Below are positions 35,603 to 56,852 of a DNA stretch of 64,000 nucleotides, piece by piece. This DNA comes from an uncultured Prevotellaceae bacterium (lineage in GTDB: Bacteria > Bacteroidota > Bacteroidia > Bacteroidales > Bacteroidaceae), in NCBI GenBank assembly GCA_946404865.1, contig CAMJFC010000007.1, forward strand, positions 18,297 through 82,296, given 5' to 3'. How positions within the stretch are numbered: the stretch's first letter is position 1; every line of letters begins with the position of its first letter. The position numbers and the translations under genes are program-made. A model generated the notes under the pieces. The model was not told the origin of the DNA. It saw nothing but the letters and a program-made list of their open reading frames with translations, and did no database searches.

Positions 35603-36409
35603 ATGAGCATATTAACAAGCAGACCCGCTCTGGAGCGGGAAGTCATGAAGATTGCCGAGGTGGCAGGCTACCTCTGGCAAAACGGATGGGCCGAGCGCAA
35701 TGGCGGCAACATCACAGTGAATATTACAGAGTTCGCCGATGATAAGATGCGGCAGATGCCAGCCATCAGCGACGTGCGACCCATCGGCATTACACTGCCC
35801 GAACTCAAGGGTTGTTACTTCTATTGCAAAGGCACAGGCAAAAGGATGCGCGACCTGGCGCGCCGGCCCATGGAAAACGGCAGCATCATACGCATCCTCG
35901 ACGATTGCGCCTCGTATGTCATCATCGCCGACCAACCTGTGGCGCCGACCAGCGAGTTGCCTAGCCACTTGATTGTCCACGCACGTCAGATTGCTACTGG
36001 CTCCGGCTATAAGGCCACGGTGCACACTCATCCGATTGAACTGGTGGCCATGAGCCACAACCGTGCGTTCCTCGGCAAGGACGTACTCACACGTATCTTA
36101 TGGTCGATGATTCCTGAGACCAAGGCATTTTGTCCACTCGGACTCGGTATCGTTCCTTATCAGTTGCCGGGTTCCAACGACCTCGCCCAAGCCACCCTCA
36201 AAGAGTTAGAGGAGTATGATGTGGTGATGTGGGAGAAGCACGGTGTCTTTGCCAAAGGTCTCGATGTGATGGATGCCTTCGACCAGATTGATGTGCTCTC
36301 CAAGAGTGCCAAGATTTATATCAGTTCGCGTTGCATGGGCTTCGAACCCGAAGGTATGAGCGACGAACAGATGGCAGAGATGACACGCGCCTTCCATCTG
36401 CCAAGATGA
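35603..36409 (+). CDS. rhaD: Rhamnulose-1-phosphate aldolase (class II aldolase family)
   Basis: NGWAERNGGNITVNI, YKATVHTHPIELVAMSHNRAFL, VVMWEKHGVFAKG. Confidence 0.88.
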   Translation: MSILTSRPALEREVMKIAEVAGYLWQNGWAERNGGNITVNITEFADDKMRQMPAISDVRPIGITLPELKGCYFYCKGTGKRMRDLARRPMENGSIIRILDDCASYVIIADQPVAPTSELPSHLIVHARQIATGSGYKATVHTHPIELVAMSHNRAFLGKDVLTRILWSMIPETKAFCPLGLGIVPYQLPGSNDLAQATLKELEEYDVVMWEKHGVFAKGLDVMDAFDQIDVLSKSAKIYISSRCMGFEPEGMSDEQMAEMTRAFHLPR

Positions 36410-43800: not shown

Positions 43801-43910
43801 CGACATATGAACATAAGAACAAATATTTTTACATAAGAACATATTTTTTTCGACAGATGAACATAGGAACATTTTTTTGACAGATGAACATAGGAACATA
43901 ATTTTTCTTT
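43801..43910. repeat. Degenerate copies of the GACATAGGAACATAAGGAC-type repeat
   Basis: CGACATATGAACATAAGAACA..., ACATAAGAACATATTTTTTTCGACAGATGAACATAGGAACAT..., GACAGATGAACATAGGAACATAATTTTT. Confidence 0.75.
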
Positions 43911-44802: not shown

Positions 44803-44856
44803 CCCCGTCGTCGTATGTTTCCGCACGTTTAGCGTGGAAATTACTCGGTTGATCTT

Positions 44857-45510
44857 CACGCTTCGCGTGGAAATTTTTCAAATTTAGTTCAAATTTTTCA
44901 AATTCATAATTTGAATCATTTCTTCGCGTCAGCTCGCCAAAGTTTTATCTATAAATATAAAGACGATGGATTGGAATAATGAATACAATAGAAAATACAA
45001 GTTCTTTCACGAAATCACAGGAGAGGCAATGAGGGTTCATTCAAAATACAAACCCGGCTTGCTTGAGTCTGCCTATGAGGCAGCTCTCAAATACTTGTTG
45101 GAACAGAATGGGCATCAAGTGGACAGACAGGTCTATCTTCCTATCTATTGGGATGAAGTGAAACTGGATCAGAATTATAGGATGGATTTGGTGATTGACT
45201 CCAATATTATCGTTGAATTGAAAGCAGTTTCACATATTGAAACCATACATCGCAGACAGTTATTCAACTATATGAACCTAACTCATTTGCCCTACGGAAT
45301 GATTATCAATTTCGGAGCCGAGAGTCTCTATTCAGAATGGTATCACAGAAACCCTACGACAGGTCAAATCGATAGAGTAAAACTGCTATGAGAATAATGT
45401 TTACAACTCTTGTCACCTATTTATTTAATAATAAACCGTAGTAATACACGCGTAGCGTGATAATTTGAAAAATTTGGATCTAATTTGAAAAATTTCCACG
45501 CGTCAGCGTG
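44857..45510. mobile_element. Candidate inverted-repeat-bounded element carrying a GxxExxY gene
   Basis: Left CACGCTTCGCGTGGAAATTTTTCAAATT(6)AAATTTTTCAAATT (44857-44904); right end 45462-45510 is its near-exact reverse complement. Confidence 0.6.
44966..45391 (+). CDS. GxxExxY protein (PD-(D/E)XK-like family)
   Basis: MRVHSKYKPGLLESAYEAALKYLL (GLLESAY = GxxExxY), YRMDLVIDSNIIVELKAVSHI (D...ExK nuclease-like core). Confidence 0.88.
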   Translation: MDWNNEYNRKYKFFHEITGEAMRVHSKYKPGLLESAYEAALKYLLEQNGHQVDRQVYLPIYWDEVKLDQNYRMDLVIDSNIIVELKAVSHIETIHRRQLFNYMNLTHLPYGMIINFGAESLYSEWYHRNPTTGQIDRVKLL

Positions 45511-45565
45511 CCAAAGACAAACACGCGTCAGCGTGCCAACCATCATCCTTCTAAAAAACCGCGTT

Positions 45566-46861
45566 ATGACACCGCAAAAATCAGCTTTCACCGCCCTCAT
45601 TGTGGCTATCACACTGTCAGTATTCATCCTTTTCCCCTTGAATCTCGCAGCGAAGAACCCTGCATCGCCTCCTGACCGGTGGCCTGACGGTACCCCCATC
45701 GACACATGGTTCAGCGATACCACCCGCATTGATGTGGCGTCGCTCGGCCGGCAGTACGTCATCACCGACTATGGTGTGCAAACTGACAGCACCCTGCTGC
45801 AGACCGAAGCCATACAAGGTGTGATTGACCGCGCTGCCCAAGAGGGTGGGGGCGTGGTCGTCGTGCCCCGCGGCACATTCCTCACGGGAGCACTCTTCTT
45901 CCGTCAAGGCACGCACCTGCACCTGAAAGAGGGAGGCGTGCTCAAAGGCATCGATGCCATCAAGCATTACCCCATCGGACGCACACGCATGGAGGGACAG
46001 ACACTCAATTACTTCGCCGCCTTGGTCAATGCCGATGGCATCGACGGTTTCACTATCACGGGCAAGGGCACCATCAACGGCAACGGACTGCGCTTCTGGG
46101 AGGAGTTCTGGTTGCGGAGGCGTTTCAACCCACAGTGTACCAACCTCGAGGCGCTGCGACCGCGGTTGGTCTATCTCTCCAACTGCCGTAATGTGCAGGT
46201 CCAAGACGTGCACCTCATCAATAGTGCTTTTTGGACCAACCATCTCTATCGTTGCGAGCGGGTGAAGTATCTCGGTTGCACCATCTACGCACCGCATACC
46301 CCCGCGGATGCGAAGGCACCGTCGAGTGATGCCATCGACTTAGATGTGTGTCACGATGTGCTGATTCACGGTTGTGATATCAGTGTCAATGACGATGCCG
46401 TGGTGTTAAAAGGAGGCAAGGGCACGTGGGCGGACCAAGACCCTGACAATGGTCCGAATGAGCGTATCATCGTGCAGCAATGCCATTATGGATTCGTTCA
46501 TGGCTGTCTGACCTTTGGAAGCGAGTCCATTTACGACAGGAATGTCATCTTGCGCAACTGCAAGGTAGAGGAGGCACAACGTGTGCTGTGGTTGAAGATG
46601 CGGCCCGATACCCCCCAGCATTATGAGTATGTCAAGGTGGAAGGAATCACCGGTTCGTGTGGCAGTTTCCTTTTTATCCATCCATGGACACAATTTTATA
46701 AGCCAGGCGACCGACCAGACATGCCGCTCTCGCTGTGCAACAATATCACAATCAAACAAATTAACATGACTTGCGGCCAATTCCTGAATGTGAAGACATC
46801 AGATAAATATGTGTTGAAGGACTTCACCCTCGACGGTGCCCCGTTGTCCTTTGAACAATAA
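45566..46861 (+). CDS. GH28-family pectinase (polygalacturonase/rhamnogalacturonase-like)
   Basis: YGVQTDSTLLQTEAIQGVIDRAAQEGGGVVVVPRGTFLTGALFF; SSDAIDLDVCHDVLIHGCDISVNDDAVVLKGGKG; GxxTFGSESIY; ATG 45566. Confidence 0.85.
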   Translation: MTPQKSAFTALIVAITLSVFILFPLNLAAKNPASPPDRWPDGTPIDTWFSDTTRIDVASLGRQYVITDYGVQTDSTLLQTEAIQGVIDRAAQEGGGVVVVPRGTFLTGALFFRQGTHLHLKEGGVLKGIDAIKHYPIGRTRMEGQTLNYFAALVNADGIDGFTITGKGTINGNGLRFWEEFWLRRRFNPQCTNLEALRPRLVYLSNCRNVQVQDVHLINSAFWTNHLYRCERVKYLGCTIYAPHTPADAKAPSSDAIDLDVCHDVLIHGCDISVNDDAVVLKGGKGTWADQDPDNGPNERIIVQQCHYGFVHGCLTFGSESIYDRNVILRNCKVEEAQRVLWLKMRPDTPQHYEYVKVEGITGSCGSFLFIHPWTQFYKPGDRPDMPLSLCNNITIKQINMTCGQFLNVKTSDKYVLKDFTLDGAPLSFEQ

Positions 46862-51762: not shown

Positions 51763-51960
51763 CGTAACTTTGGCTTCGCCGAAGTTACTGGCACTCGGTC
51801 AAGCAAAAGAAAAAGGGATTTTTCTTTTGCTTGACACTCGTTTTTTCGTAACTTTGCCACGTTGTGGCGAAGTTACTCTGTCTCGGCATAAAAAAGAAAC
51901 AGGTTTCTTTTGTTCTGCCCTCGACTTTTCGTAACTTTGCAGCGGAGTGCCATCAGCGGC
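51763..51960 (+). repeat. Tandem ~84-bp promoter/hairpin units upstream of AAA ATPase gene
   Basis: TAACTTTG at 51765, 51849 and 51932; hairpins GTCAAGCAAAAGAAAAA-GGGA-TTTTTCTTTTGCTTGAC (51798-51835) and AACTTTGCCAC-GTT-GTGGCGAAGTT. Confidence 0.8.
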
Positions 51961-51976
51961 ACGAAAGGAGAGCACG

Positions 51977-53596
51977 ATGAAACAGGAAGAGAATAATCGC
52001 ATAGGCTATGCCGTGGGCGTGCATGAGTTTGACTGGATACGCGAACGCGGAGCGAGGTATGTCGATAAGACGGCATACGTCTATCGGATGGTTGCTACAG
52101 AAGCCAAATATTTCTTTTTAAGCCGGCCGCGGCGCTTCGGCAAGTCACTGCTGGTGGATACCCTGCGCTGCTACTTCGAGGGGCGCAAGGAACTGTTCGA
52201 GGGTTTGGCCATCTACGACATGGAGAAGGAGTGGCGCAAGTATCCCGTCATCCGCCTCGACCTGTCGCGCGGCAAGTATTTCGCGCGCGAAGAAGTGCAC
52301 CCCATCTTCAACAGCATCCTCAGCGACCATGAGCGGCGGTGGAATGTGACGTGCCGCGATGAATACAGCTATGGAGCCCGTCTGACAGACATCATACAGG
52401 CGGCGCACCAGCAGACGGGCGAGCGCGTGGTGGTGCTCATCGACGAGTACGACGCGCCGATGCTCGACAGCATCAACGACCACGCCCTGCAAGAATATAT
52501 CCGCAACCGTGTGCGCTCGCTCTTCTCGCCATTGAAGGAGCAGGCGCAGTATCTCAGGTTCGTCTTCCTGACGGGTATCTCGAAATTCTCGCAACTGTCG
52601 GTGTTCAGCGAGCTCAACAACCTGCAGCAGCTCACGTTCAACCCCGCCTACGAGGGCATCTGCGGCATCACCGAGGAGGAACTGCTCACGCAGCTGAAGC
52701 CCGATATCGAACTTCTGGTAGAGAAACAGAACCACCTTGACAGGCATGAAGGCATCACCCACACCTTCGACAGCATCGTGGCCGACCTGAAATACTGGTA
52801 CGACGGTTACCATTTCTCCAAGGAAATGACTGATGTCTATTGTCCGTGGAGTCTGATCAACGCCTTCTCCATGGGCGACATCATGAACTTCTGGTTCTCC
52901 TCTGGCACGCCCACCTCGCTCATCAACATCCTGCGCACGCGCACGAATATCTCGCTGACCGAGCTGGAGGGCTACACCGCCAAATTGTCCCGCTTCGACG
53001 CGCCCACCGAGCGCATCACCGACCCCATACCGGCGCTCTTCCAGAGCGGCTACCTGACGCTGAAAAGCTACGACAGACGGCGCAATCAGTGGACGCTGGG
53101 CTTCCCCAATGAAGAGGTGCGCGAGGGCTTCGCCCACAGCCTCTACCAATACTACATGGAGGACTACGTGGGCAGCGCCGACGCACTGGCCATCGCCTTC
53201 AACGACCTGCGGTTCCAAGACAAGACGTTCGAGCAGTTTGTCGAGGTCATACGCAAGTGGTATGCCGGAATACCGTATAGCATCACGGATAAGAACCAAA
53301 ACGAGCAGCTTTATCAGTCATTGCTCTATGCGGGTTTCCTCGCTGTGGGTGCCGACATCCAGGCCGAGGACCAGACCTCAGACGGACGGATGGACATCGC
53401 GCTGAAGTTGCCGCACGGCATCTACATTCTCGAACTGAAATACAATAAGAGTGCCGAGGAGGCCACCGACCAGATCATCGCCAAGGACTATGCCGTGCGC
53501 TTCGCCGCCGACACGCGCCCCGTCTATGCCGTGGGCATGAACATCAGCGCCGACCGCCGCACCATCGACCGCGCCAAGATTGTCAGGGTGAAGTAA
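51977..53596 (+). CDS. AAA-ATPase-like/PD-(D/E)XK nuclease domain protein (DUF1703-type)
   Basis: YAVGVHEFDWIRERGARYVDKTAYVYRMV; FLSRPRRFGKSLLVDTLRCYF; DGRMDIALKLPHGIYILELKYNKSAEEATDQI; ATG 51977. Confidence 0.9.
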   Translation: MKQEENNRIGYAVGVHEFDWIRERGARYVDKTAYVYRMVATEAKYFFLSRPRRFGKSLLVDTLRCYFEGRKELFEGLAIYDMEKEWRKYPVIRLDLSRGKYFAREEVHPIFNSILSDHERRWNVTCRDEYSYGARLTDIIQAAHQQTGERVVVLIDEYDAPMLDSINDHALQEYIRNRVRSLFSPLKEQAQYLRFVFLTGISKFSQLSVFSELNNLQQLTFNPAYEGICGITEEELLTQLKPDIELLVEKQNHLDRHEGITHTFDSIVADLKYWYDGYHFSKEMTDVYCPWSLINAFSMGDIMNFWFSSGTPTSLINILRTRTNISLTELEGYTAKLSRFDAPTERITDPIPALFQSGYLTLKSYDRRRNQWTLGFPNEEVREGFAHSLYQYYMEDYVGSADALAIAFNDLRFQDKTFEQFVEVIRKWYAGIPYSITDKNQNEQLYQSLLYAGFLAVGADIQAEDQTSDGRMDIALKLPHGIYILELKYNKSAEEATDQIIAKDYAVRFAADTRPVYAVGMNISADRRTIDRAKIVRVK

Positions 53597-53645
53597 AAGT
53601 AAAAAAGTAAAGAAGTAAAAAAGTAAAGAAGTAAAGAAGTAAAAT
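53596..53645. repeat. Octamer-type microsatellite (AAGTAAAR)n
   Basis: aagtaaaaaagtaaagaagtaaaaaagtaaagaagtaaagaagtaaaa directly after the ATPase stop. Confidence 0.85.
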
Positions 53646-53792
53646 TAGGCGTTGGTTTGATGCAAAAACAAGGTGCGCTACGACTATAGTCTAAACTCCC
53701 AAACTTCCAAACTCCCAAACTCCAAAGAGTAAGCGGAGCTTGCGAAAGTTGAATATAATGACACTTTATTGTAACATTAAAATATTATCTTT

Positions 53793-54464
53793 ATGAAAAA
53801 AATGATTTTGATGGCCCTCTTAGCAATGGCTGTCACAAGCGTGAAAGCACAGTATGAACCCGGCAGGTGGTCGTTGAAACCCTTTGCTGCCCTCGGCTTC
53901 AGTACCCTCTCTAACATGGAGGCCCTGCCTCTGTTTCCCGGTGTGAAACTGGATAAAAAGATAGCCGCCGCCGCGCGGTCGGGCTTGGTCGTCGAATATC
54001 AGGTGGCTGAGCGCGTCGGCATCGAGGCGGGACTGATGTACGGCATGCAAGGCTGCGGCTGGGACGACTACAAGGCCGGTGACAACAAACTCGAAGACTT
54101 CGGACTCGAACTGCAGTACATACAGGTGCCTGTGGCTGCAAATATCTATCTGGTGAAGGGCCTGGCGCTGAAAGCCGGTGTGCAGGTGGGCTTCCTGACT
54201 TCGGCCGACGTGAAGTACACCACCGAGACGAAGATAAACGGTTATGACACCACTTCGGACACGAGAATCGATTTCAAGAAAGAGTGCAACACGGTAGATG
54301 TGTCTATCCCCGTGGGCCTGTCGTATGAGTTTGACAGTCACTGGGTGATCGATGCCACCTACAACATCGGACTCACGAAGGTGAACAAAGACAGCGACCC
54401 CGACGGGAACGACCATAAAAACGGGGTGTTCTTCGTTGGCTTCGGCTACAAATTCGGGCTGTAA
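53793..54464 (+). CDS. Outer-membrane beta-barrel (porin-family) protein
   Basis: Signal peptide MKKMILMALLAMAVTSVKAQ; alternating strands; C-terminal GVFFVGFGYKFGL. Confidence 0.8.
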   Translation: MKKMILMALLAMAVTSVKAQYEPGRWSLKPFAALGFSTLSNMEALPLFPGVKLDKKIAAAARSGLVVEYQVAERVGIEAGLMYGMQGCGWDDYKAGDNKLEDFGLELQYIQVPVAANIYLVKGLALKAGVQVGFLTSADVKYTTETKINGYDTTSDTRIDFKKECNTVDVSIPVGLSYEFDSHWVIDATYNIGLTKVNKDSDPDGNDHKNGVFFVGFGYKFGL

Positions 54465-54578
54465 GAATGTTTAGTGTTGAGTGTTGAGTGTTTAGTGTTC
54501 TACACGGTTGAGGTAGTTTGGGCATGTTTCATCATATTTGCGAGTAGGGACAGGGCTCTCCTGCCCCCCTATTAGTAG

Positions 54579-54612
54579 CGATGCAGGGATGTGAAAAGAC
54601 ATCCCTGCATCG
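54579..54612. terminator. Terminator-like hairpin
   Basis: CGATGCAGGGATGT-GAAAAG-ACATCCCTGCATCG followed by TATTTTT. Confidence 0.7.
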
Positions 54613-54717
54613 TATTTTTGTATAGAGTGCTCAATGTTAATGTGTAACGTTTTTTACGTTATTTACTTTATTAACGTTATTTACGTACGACGTTTTTAAC
54701 GTGCACGTTTTTTACGA

Positions 54718-55122
54718 TTATCGTGTCACCTTTCTTATGCCACGGCTGTCCTTGACGATATAGATGCCGCGGGGCAGGCCATTGAGCGAGGCGTCGCCAC
54801 GCTGCACCAGAACGCCCGACGTGGTATATACCTCGACGGTGGCGCTTGGAGCCGGCGTCACCTCCACTGACTGGATGGCAGTGGCTCCGGCGCCGAAATA
54901 CATCTTCTTCAGGCCGGTGAGAGGATAGGAGGCCATGGTGGCATCGCCGTTGATAATCACCATCTGGCCGTCGATAAACTTAATCTTGTCGAAACTGGCC
55001 AGTGCCGTCTGAGCTGTGGCGCCATCGGTCTGTTCCACCACTAAATACTCGATGCCGTCGGCGTGGCATACTGCCGTGGCCATCATCAGCAGCGCGGCTG
55101 TCAATGTGCGTATCTTTTTCAT
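54718..55122 (-). CDS. Small secreted protein dominated by T9SS sorting domain
   Basis: MKKIRTLTAALLMMATAVCHADGIEYLVVEQTDG...; tail VYTTSGVLVQRGDASLNGLPRGIYIVKDSRGIRKVTR. Confidence 0.8.
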   Translation of the reverse strand: MKKIRTLTAALLMMATAVCHADGIEYLVVEQTDGATAQTALASFDKIKFIDGQMVIINGDATMASYPLTGLKKMYFGAGATAIQSVEVTPAPSATVEVYTTSGVLVQRGDASLNGLPRGIYIVKDSRGIRKVTR

Positions 55123-55280
55123 AGCTTATGTGATTTGCCTGCAAAGATAATTGTTTTTGGCGGAATCGCACAAAAAAAACAAGCTTTTTTTGCTCAATCA
55201 AAATTTAATCATTACATTTGTGGCACTTTTAAGCACATACCTTTATTTATTAGATACTACTAATTATTCAGAAAACGACT

Positions 55281-55841
55281 ATGATAGACGTCAAAGAAAC
55301 ACTCAACGAGAGCGAAGAGAGAATGGAAATGGCGGCCATGTTCCTCGAAGAGCAGTTGGCACGCATACGCGCCGGCAGGGCCAATGTGGCCATCCTCGGC
55401 GGCGTGAGAGTCGATTCCTACGGGCAGATGGTGCCGCTCAACCAAGTGGCCAACGTTTCTACCCCCGACCCGCGCACCATCGCCATACGGCCGTGGGACA
55501 AGAAGATGATCAGAGCCATCGAAAAGGCCATCATGGACTCTGACGTAGGCATCACACCCGAGAACAACGGCGAAATCATCCGCCTGGGCATACCGCAGCC
55601 CACCGAGGAACGCCGCCGCGAACTGGCCAAGCAGTGCAATAAGATAGGAGAAAAAGCCAAGGTGGAGGTGCGCAACGTGCGCAGCGACATCAAAGACCGA
55701 CTGAAGAAGGCCATCAAGGACGGGCTGTCGGAAGACAACGAGAAGGATGCTGAACTGGAGTTGCAGAAACTGCACGACAAGTACATTAAGAAGCTCGACG
55801 ACCTGCTCGCAGCGAAGAACAAAGAGATCATGACCGTATAG
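55281..55841 (+). CDS. frr: Ribosome recycling factor
   Basis: LARIRAGRANVAILGGVRVDSYGQMVPLNQVANVSTPDPRTIAI; IPQPTEERRRELAKQ. Confidence 0.96.
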   Translation: MIDVKETLNESEERMEMAAMFLEEQLARIRAGRANVAILGGVRVDSYGQMVPLNQVANVSTPDPRTIAIRPWDKKMIRAIEKAIMDSDVGITPENNGEIIRLGIPQPTEERRRELAKQCNKIGEKAKVEVRNVRSDIKDRLKKAIKDGLSEDNEKDAELELQKLHDKYIKKLDDLLAAKNKEIMTV

Positions 55842-56774
55842 ATGAAGGGTCTCGTCGTCAAGAACACCGGCAGCTGGTACACCGTCCTCACCGACGATGG
55901 CCAGACTGTCGATAGTAAGATCAAGGGCAATTTCCGACTGAAGGGCATCCGCAGCACCAACCCCGTGGCGGTGGGCGACCATGTGGAGATTGTACGCAAC
56001 CAAGAAGGTACGGCGTTCATCACAAAGATTGATGACCGCCGTAACTATATCATACGCAAATCGTCGAACCTCTCGAAGCAGAGTCATATCATCGCCGCCA
56101 ATGTCGATCAGGCGTGTCTGGTGGTCACCATCAACTACCCGGAGACATCCACCACTTTCATCGACCGTTTTCTGGCCACGGCCGAGGCTTATAGCGTGCC
56201 GGTCATCCTCGTGTTTAATAAGACAGACCGGCTCAATGCCGACGAACTTCATCTACAGCAGATGATGATGACGCTCTACGAGACCATCGGCTATGAGTGC
56301 GTGGCCCTCTCGGCTGCCACCGGCGAGGGCGTGGAGGCTTTGGAGGGGAAACTGAAAGACCGCATCACCCTCTTCAGCGGCAACAGCGGGGTGGGGAAGT
56401 CAACCCTGCTCAACCGTCTCATTCCCGGCGTGCACCTGCGTACTGCCGAGATTTCTGATGCGCACAACACGGGCACCCACACCACCACCTTCAGCGAGAT
56501 GCTGCGGTTGCCCGCGGGCGGCTGGGTCATCGACACGCCGGGCATCAAGGGCTTTGGCACCTTCAACATGGAGCCTGAGGAGATATGCCATTATTTCCGT
56601 GAGATATTCCGTTTCTCGGCCGATTGCCGCTTTGGCAACTGCACCCACACGCACGAGCCCGGCTGCGCCGTGCGCCAGGCGGTAGAAGACCACTACATCG
56701 CCCAGTCGCGCTACAACTCATACCTCAATATGCTCGAAGACAAAGACGAAGGAAAATACCGCGCCGCGTATTGA
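55842..56774 (+). CDS. rsgA: Ribosome small subunit-dependent GTPase A
   Basis: [43 protein letters not shown]; circularly permuted GTPase; C-terminal Cys/His zinc motif. Confidence 0.95.
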
Positions 56775-56852
56775 GGGACAGTGGGTTTAGGGTTTAAGGT
56801 TTAGAGTTTAGTGTCCTTTGTGCCTTTCGTGGATAGTCTTTCGTGGACTGTT

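Follow-up and report, generated by a model that had tools for sequence, protein, structure and literature searches.

A GxxExxY nuclease-fold gene between inverted repeat arrays in an uncultured Prevotellaceae bacterium: a candidate selfish nuclease-plus-repeat element

GxxExxY proteins form a widely annotated family without an assigned function, and in the available text of open-access articles the name is seldom mentioned, at least partly in passing only. A 64,000-nucleotide contig segment from an uncultured Prevotellaceae bacterium (the window) carries one such gene between two inverted repeats, and the initial annotation of this DNA, made from the sequence alone, took the unit for a mobile or homing-like element in which the nuclease-fold protein is the actor. 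Is the unit a discrete element, does its design recur around other genes of the family, and does the protein act on the repeats that enclose it? In this paper we compare the locus with other genomes of the same genus and with GxxExxY loci from other phyla.

The element in the window and its protein

The whole unit spans window positions 44857-45510 and consists of an intact GxxExxY gene between inverted arms of ~48 bp, each made of one CACGC..GCGTG hairpin and four GAAAT/CAAAT units.

44824..44836, unstranded: left outer hairpin CACGTTTAGCGTG (pattern and inverted-repeat search)
44857..44904, + strand: left arm, hairpin CACGCTTCGCGTG plus GAAATTTTTCAAATTTAGTTCAAATTTTTCAAATT (GAAAT/CAAAT units; inverted-repeat search, arm score)
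44966..45391, + strand: GxxExxY gene, 141 aa, predicted PD-(D/E)XK nuclease fold (TIGR04256, PF13366, alignment, AlphaFold2, Foldseek)
45447..45459, unstranded: hairpin CACGCGTAGCGTG directly inside the right arm (pattern search, folding)
45462..45510, - strand: right arm, the left arm inverted, with hairpin CACGCGTCAGCGTG (inverted-repeat search, arm score)
45522..45535, unstranded: right outer hairpin CACGCGTCAGCGTG (pattern and inverted-repeat search)

The analysis confirmed an inverted-arm architecture far above chance. The ~48-bp inverted repeats described earlier pair at 90% complementarity over 41 nt (44864-44904 with 45462-45502, 557 nt between them), share AAATTTTTCAAATT-N6-AAATTTTTCAAATT (44871-44884 and 44891-44904; 45462-45475 and 45482-45495), and reach an arm alignment score of 66, vs an average of 18 between unrelated flanks. 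All five hairpins listed by the initial annotation are present, at 44824, 44857, 45447, 45497 and 45522 (the last had been placed at 45523, off by one), with folding energies of -3.9 to -4.9 kcal/mol when single-stranded in isolation. Three of the four window matches to CACG-N5-CGTG (1.4 expected per 64 kb) and both matches to CACGC-N4-GCGTG (0.1 expected) fall within the 0.7 kb of the five hairpins; the CAAAT-unit pattern, with a chance expectation of none, occurs within the window in the two arms only. GxxExxY is the only gene between the arms, and profile searches identified its neighbours as the GDSL/SGNH hydrolase and GH28 genes that had been named. Elsewhere in the window, at 35603-36409, an ORF stands between inverted copies of ATTCAACATTCAACATTCAAAATTCAACA, an intergenic repeat of a further type.

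The window protein belongs to the family by its matches to TIGR04256 (E=1.7e-36, 125.1 bits, cut-off 35) and PF13366 (E=1.5e-33, 116.1 bits, cut-off 22), the latter its only Pfam match. Across an alignment of 40 diverse GxxExxY members, E34, Y37, D74, E84, K86, Q98 and Y102 are invariant; E34, D74, E84 and K86 compose the full E, D, E-x-K site of the PD-(D/E)XK core that had been claimed, and Q98 and Y102 the QxxxY motif, as in lambda exonuclease and Cas4. The best solved Foldseek matches to an AlphaFold2 model (pLDDT 92.2) were Cas4 SSO0001 and lambda exonuclease, with modest significance (Cas4 4ic1: probability ~1.0, E=0.002), and the predicted fold is Cas4/lambda-exonuclease-like PD-(D/E)XK, with all catalytic residues invariant. 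For the GxxExxY gene pN was 0.07-0.21 vs a pS of 0.79-0.96, so that nonsynonymous differences are far below synonymous ones and the protein is maintained by purifying selection. A role as Cas4 in CRISPR adaptation was rejected: the alignment lacks conserved (iron-sulphur) cysteines, the neighbours are SGNH and GH28 rather than cas genes, and the PADLOC Cas4 profile matched at E=0.0027 only. Rfam and phage searches gave no match.

Flanking repeats in the genus and in other phyla

The initial annotation had singled out the flanks of other GxxExxY genes for comparison. We aligned the 300 bp upstream of each gene with the reverse complement of the 300 bp downstream, for 83 distinct GxxExxY genes with full flanks from 60 same-genus genomes. 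The median score was 42, vs 18 when flanks of different genes were paired and 17 when flanks were shuffled, and 64% of the 83 genes lay above the cross-gene control's 99th percentile, where 1% is expected; about a third are without clear arms. By the same test, 5% of 121 neighbouring genes were above threshold, as were 1.8% of 1126 ORFs from sampled contigs and the window (a set that itself includes several GxxExxY, four-helix or Y1 genes) and, as a positive control, 54% of Y1 transposase genes. In direct orientation the flank similarity of GxxExxY genes was near background (median 20).

Arm sequences differ widely between genes (CACAGATT, carried for example by the divergent member at L075; CACGGATT, ACGAATT, CAAAT, GACAGAAGAAC and others), and their units are spaced at ~9 nt (lag 9 gives z=10.6, and lag 18 is its harmonic). 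The varied arms nevertheless follow a common plan of short units with a 9-nt period, inverted about the gene. Strong hairpins are a trait of the window's branch; what is general is the 9-nt-period unit array.

A scan of GTDB genomes with a 5-sequence GxxExxY alignment yielded 80 named loci in Bacteroidota, Planctomycetota, Cyanobacteria, Acidobacteria, Verrucomicrobia, Marinimicrobia, Calditrichia, Proteobacteria, Anaerolineae and others. Flanks were usable at 71 of them; 49% of these scored above 34, and 22% exceeded their own cross-gene 99th percentile, which is stricter here because related loci share arms. The arms include ACCACAGAGACACAGAG, CCACGAAGGGCACGAAG, CACGGAGACACGGAG and CGCCAAGACGCCAAG, and across many phyla are of CACAGAG, CACGAAG or CACGGAT type. 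In annotated records, Bacteroides finegoldii has a GxxExxY gene between radA and an FAD protein gene, with CACAGAG-type arms on both sides, and Sphingomonas has one between fabD and fabG, with the left arm alone recognisable. A design that recurs with different repeats in many bacterial groups suggests a common and as yet undescribed kind of selfish mobile DNA.

Protein and arms diverge together. At non-syntenic loci, proteins at least 70% identical had a median flank similarity of 42, vs a background of 18-19, with 80% above 30; below about 50% protein identity arm similarity drops to background (syntenic pairs excluded), and the protein/arm Mantel correlation, computed without full phylogenetic correction, was r=0.36, vs 0.09 for the largest of 999 permutations. 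The nearest relatives of the window gene in the sample lie in three other genomes at unrelated loci, all with hairpin and GAAAT/CAAAT arms. Since related proteins share arms at unrelated loci, the pattern shows that gene and arms were inherited or moved as a unit, which does not of itself prove recognition by the protein. A single ancestral insertion was rejected, arms differing between lineages and sites being empty in relatives. One Prevotella nigrescens gene was left uncounted, its distances to the window gene being equal to those of G012/L116, so that it is probably from the same species and no independent check. In P. nigrescens (L449:3437-3830), three near-identical CAAAT-type repeat copies of ~120 bp stand in tandem after the GxxExxY gene.

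Gene-less copies, empty sites and exchange

The repeat of the window element had 11 matches in its own genome, nine of them away from the gene, and none with the reversed control. CAAAT arrays numbered 8-17 per genome in all five genomes with a window-type gene; among 15 genomes without one, nine had none, five had 1-3 and G041 had 15, the 20 genomes having been picked partly for gene or repeat. In G041 (61% complete, no window-type gene detected; loci L072, L326-L327 and L334), many of the arrays lie at contig ends as identical inverted pairs. For 20 genes from five genomes, arms occurred elsewhere in the gene's own genome at 1.8 sites per ~0.4 Mb, whereas the other genomes had 0.25 (p=5e-4). 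These copy numbers, from pattern searches and ~0.4-Mb samples, are lower bounds because most of the genomes are draft MAGs with assemblies broken at repeats.

Gene-less copies in G045 are clustered and MITE-like (arm, ~90 bp, inverted arm). Those in G006, G012 and G041 are oriented as in the gene-bearing unit; in G000 and G229 the order is reversed, the unit arrays lying outermost and the hairpins between them. Searches of open-access papers for the repeat sequences brought up nothing relevant. Copies at L097 and G041:C16/C7 are long nested palindromes, CACGACGTGACGGCATGCCGTCACGTCGTG, a separate family found beside a GxxExxY gene and elsewhere in G041.

Comparison with G229 adds two features to the window.

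43802..43899, unstranded: gene-less array of GACAGATGAACATAGGAACATTTTTTT units in the ALDH-SGNH gap (comparison with G229)
44841..45642, unstranded: putative exchanged tract that takes in the element and the beginning of GH28 (~99% identity to G229, vs ~83-91% in the flanks)

The arrangement at the SGNH-GH28 junction is not fixed among relatives, in keeping with the mobility proposed earlier. In G313 the junction is empty, with <80 bp from SGNH stop to GH28 start and no hairpins; G006 has another gene there and no element, and G229 has the element in the same place as the window. The empty allele at the same site that characterises homing elements is thus found in G313, and at a second locus in G086. 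At the L003 junction, G000 and G229 carry GxxExxY at a shared site, and there divergence is greater within the element than in the flanks. In G086 this junction is a 45-bp gap with no element; in G313, G009 and G006 it is occupied by four-helix-bundle (PF05635) elements whose arms differ. The L002 junction is empty by coordinates in G086, G009 and G214 (gaps of about 65-78 bp). The junctions read had no clear target-site duplication, the relatives being too diverged for exact empty/full junctions to be readable.

Over the tract 44841-45642 the window and G229 differ by about 7 substitutions in 800 bp, against differences at roughly 10-17% of sites in the flanks, and this excess of identity over the flanks indicates recent exchange; its extension to the start of GH28 is what would be expected of exchange by recombination with co-conversion. 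G229 has in addition, at 45522..45535, a 32-bp segment with one further CACGC..GCGTG hairpin. In the ALDH-SGNH gap G229 carries a second GxxExxY gene between repeats, and the window has there the gene-less array of similar units. The identity spike and this pair of repeat-only and repeat-plus-gene alleles favour homing-like exchange, and the large number of scattered copies speaks for a further route of dispersal. A second tract, at window 51927-56777, is 95% identical to G229 amid flanks of ~75-88%; its ORFs were assigned by eye as AAA-ATPase/PD-(D/E)XK-type, outer-membrane protein and rsgA-like GTPase.

Mechanism, rival explanations and known systems

We think it rather probable that this is a selfish element of one gene, whose nuclease reads its own arms and drives its spread. 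The PD-(D/E)XK protein, encoded between inverted arms of short units with a period of ~9 nt, would recognise those units and cut or nick the DNA there. Spread would follow by one of two routes: coding and gene-less copies might move as in transposition, or break repair and gene conversion might carry the element into sites whose repeats match its own. With an arm sequence of its own for each GxxExxY lineage, gene and repeats would spread and diverge jointly and leave many gene-less copies behind. Co-divergence with the arms, an intact invariant active site and purifying selection make the nuclease the likely actor. Weighing against this reading are the absence of a readable target-site duplication, the reversed order of the gene-less copies in G000 and G229, the CAAAT arrays of G041, the third or so of GxxExxY genes that lack clear arms, and the greater divergence of the element at L003. 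The initial annotation was right that this is a discrete mobile unit, as the empty site, the exchange and the gene-less repeats attest; the part it gave to the nuclease is what we infer. Of the two findings that it had said would refute it, GxxExxY genes without flanking repeats and an arrangement fixed in all relatives, neither proved to be the rule.

In the main rival reading the repeats are spread by ordinary recombination or by another enzyme, for example a Y1/RAYT transposase, with GxxExxY as their passenger or as a modulator of copy number or expression. Four-helix-bundle (PF05635) genes, a family not known for nuclease activity, are built alike (56% lie between inverted repeats) and occupy in other species a junction that holds a GxxExxY element, so that spread might use shared machinery, for which these same-junction elements are the strongest evidence; Y1 transposases, moreover, occur in 35 of the 60 genus genomes. 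The Y1 genes of these genomes, however, have different, REP-type hairpin repeats; the arms are specific to family and lineage and, at unrelated loci, diverge in step with GxxExxY; the active site is invariant in 40 diverse members, and the protein is under purifying selection. We consider the passenger reading unlikely.

Less probable still is a host caretaker that would act on DNA or RNA structures arising from repeats, by resolving, trimming or silencing them, with the arms as autoregulatory sites. An intact nuclease with the QxxxY motif of lambda exonuclease and Cas4, long-term purifying selection, and arms at the positions expected of operators and mRNA ends all agree with such a role, but patchy presence with empty sites in relatives speaks more for an element than for a core function of the host, as do recent exchange between species and the excess of scattered arms in genomes that carry the matching gene. 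To mere coincidence, in which repeats and GxxExxY genes just share intergenic hot spots, we give almost no credence: some junctions are indeed hot spots for several kinds of element, but the association itself refutes this, given how rarely neighbouring genes and sampled ORFs have inverted flanks, the near-background similarity in direct orientation, and the correlation of protein and arm similarity at non-syntenic loci.

More widely, selfish elements made of a nuclease and its repeats may form a large, so far undescribed class across bacterial phyla, with GxxExxY nucleases as their cognate enzymes; they would be the source of the common CACAGAG/CACGAAG/CACGGATT-type intergenic repeats, each lineage with a co-evolved 5-7-nt unit read three or four times at ~9 nt. 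This wider claim we advance tentatively, as slightly less likely than not. Linking GxxExxY to cognate interspersed repeats would give the family a testable function and make its elements a likely source of intergenic repeats of a kind widespread in bacteria, and the pairs of nuclease and recognition unit would be a natural series for decoding DNA specificity.

Homing endonucleases with a PD-(D/E)XK fold exist, for example I-Ssp6803I. Like them, GxxExxY is a small stand-alone nuclease whose gene lies inside a repeat pair in some genomes and is absent in others, with an exchange tract (window vs G229) that takes in flanking sequence; unlike them, it lies outside any intron or intein, has its own inverted arms and has many gene-less copies at unrelated sites. 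The 23S rRNA intervening sequence or S23 (IVP, PF05635) elements, described as selfish (PMC4990558), are also small single-gene elements, and IVP genes of this genus lie between genes and are flanked by inverted arrays, but their protein is a four-helix bundle rather than a nuclease and their arms have GGAGTTA/GAAGTTA-type units. Such inverted arrays were seen among the PF05635 loci L126-L155, L142, L147 and L440. Bacteroidales also have MITEs with internal repeats, as in Porphyromonas gingivalis (PMC4596501), which are likewise short, gene-less and bounded by inverted ends, although for the GxxExxY element a coding partner with the same arms has been identified.

In RAYT and REP/REPIN systems (REPtrons, TIRtrons), a Y1/HUH nuclease gene is associated with short inverted repeats and scattered gene-less cognate repeats (PMC3733652, PMC3116915). 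Here too one small nuclease gene lies between short inverted repeats, there are several gene/repeat lineages per genome, and the flanking repeats of the window element are scattered gene-less in its genome. Strict REP/REPtron membership was rejected, the only Pfam match being PF13366 and not a Y1 (HUH) protein; the arms are arrays of short units with a ~9-nt period rather than GTAG-tagged REP hairpins, and Y1 genes of the same genus carry repeats differing from them. The locus would be best read as a selfish nuclease-plus-repeat element, analogous to RAYT/REPIN and built around an unrelated enzyme.
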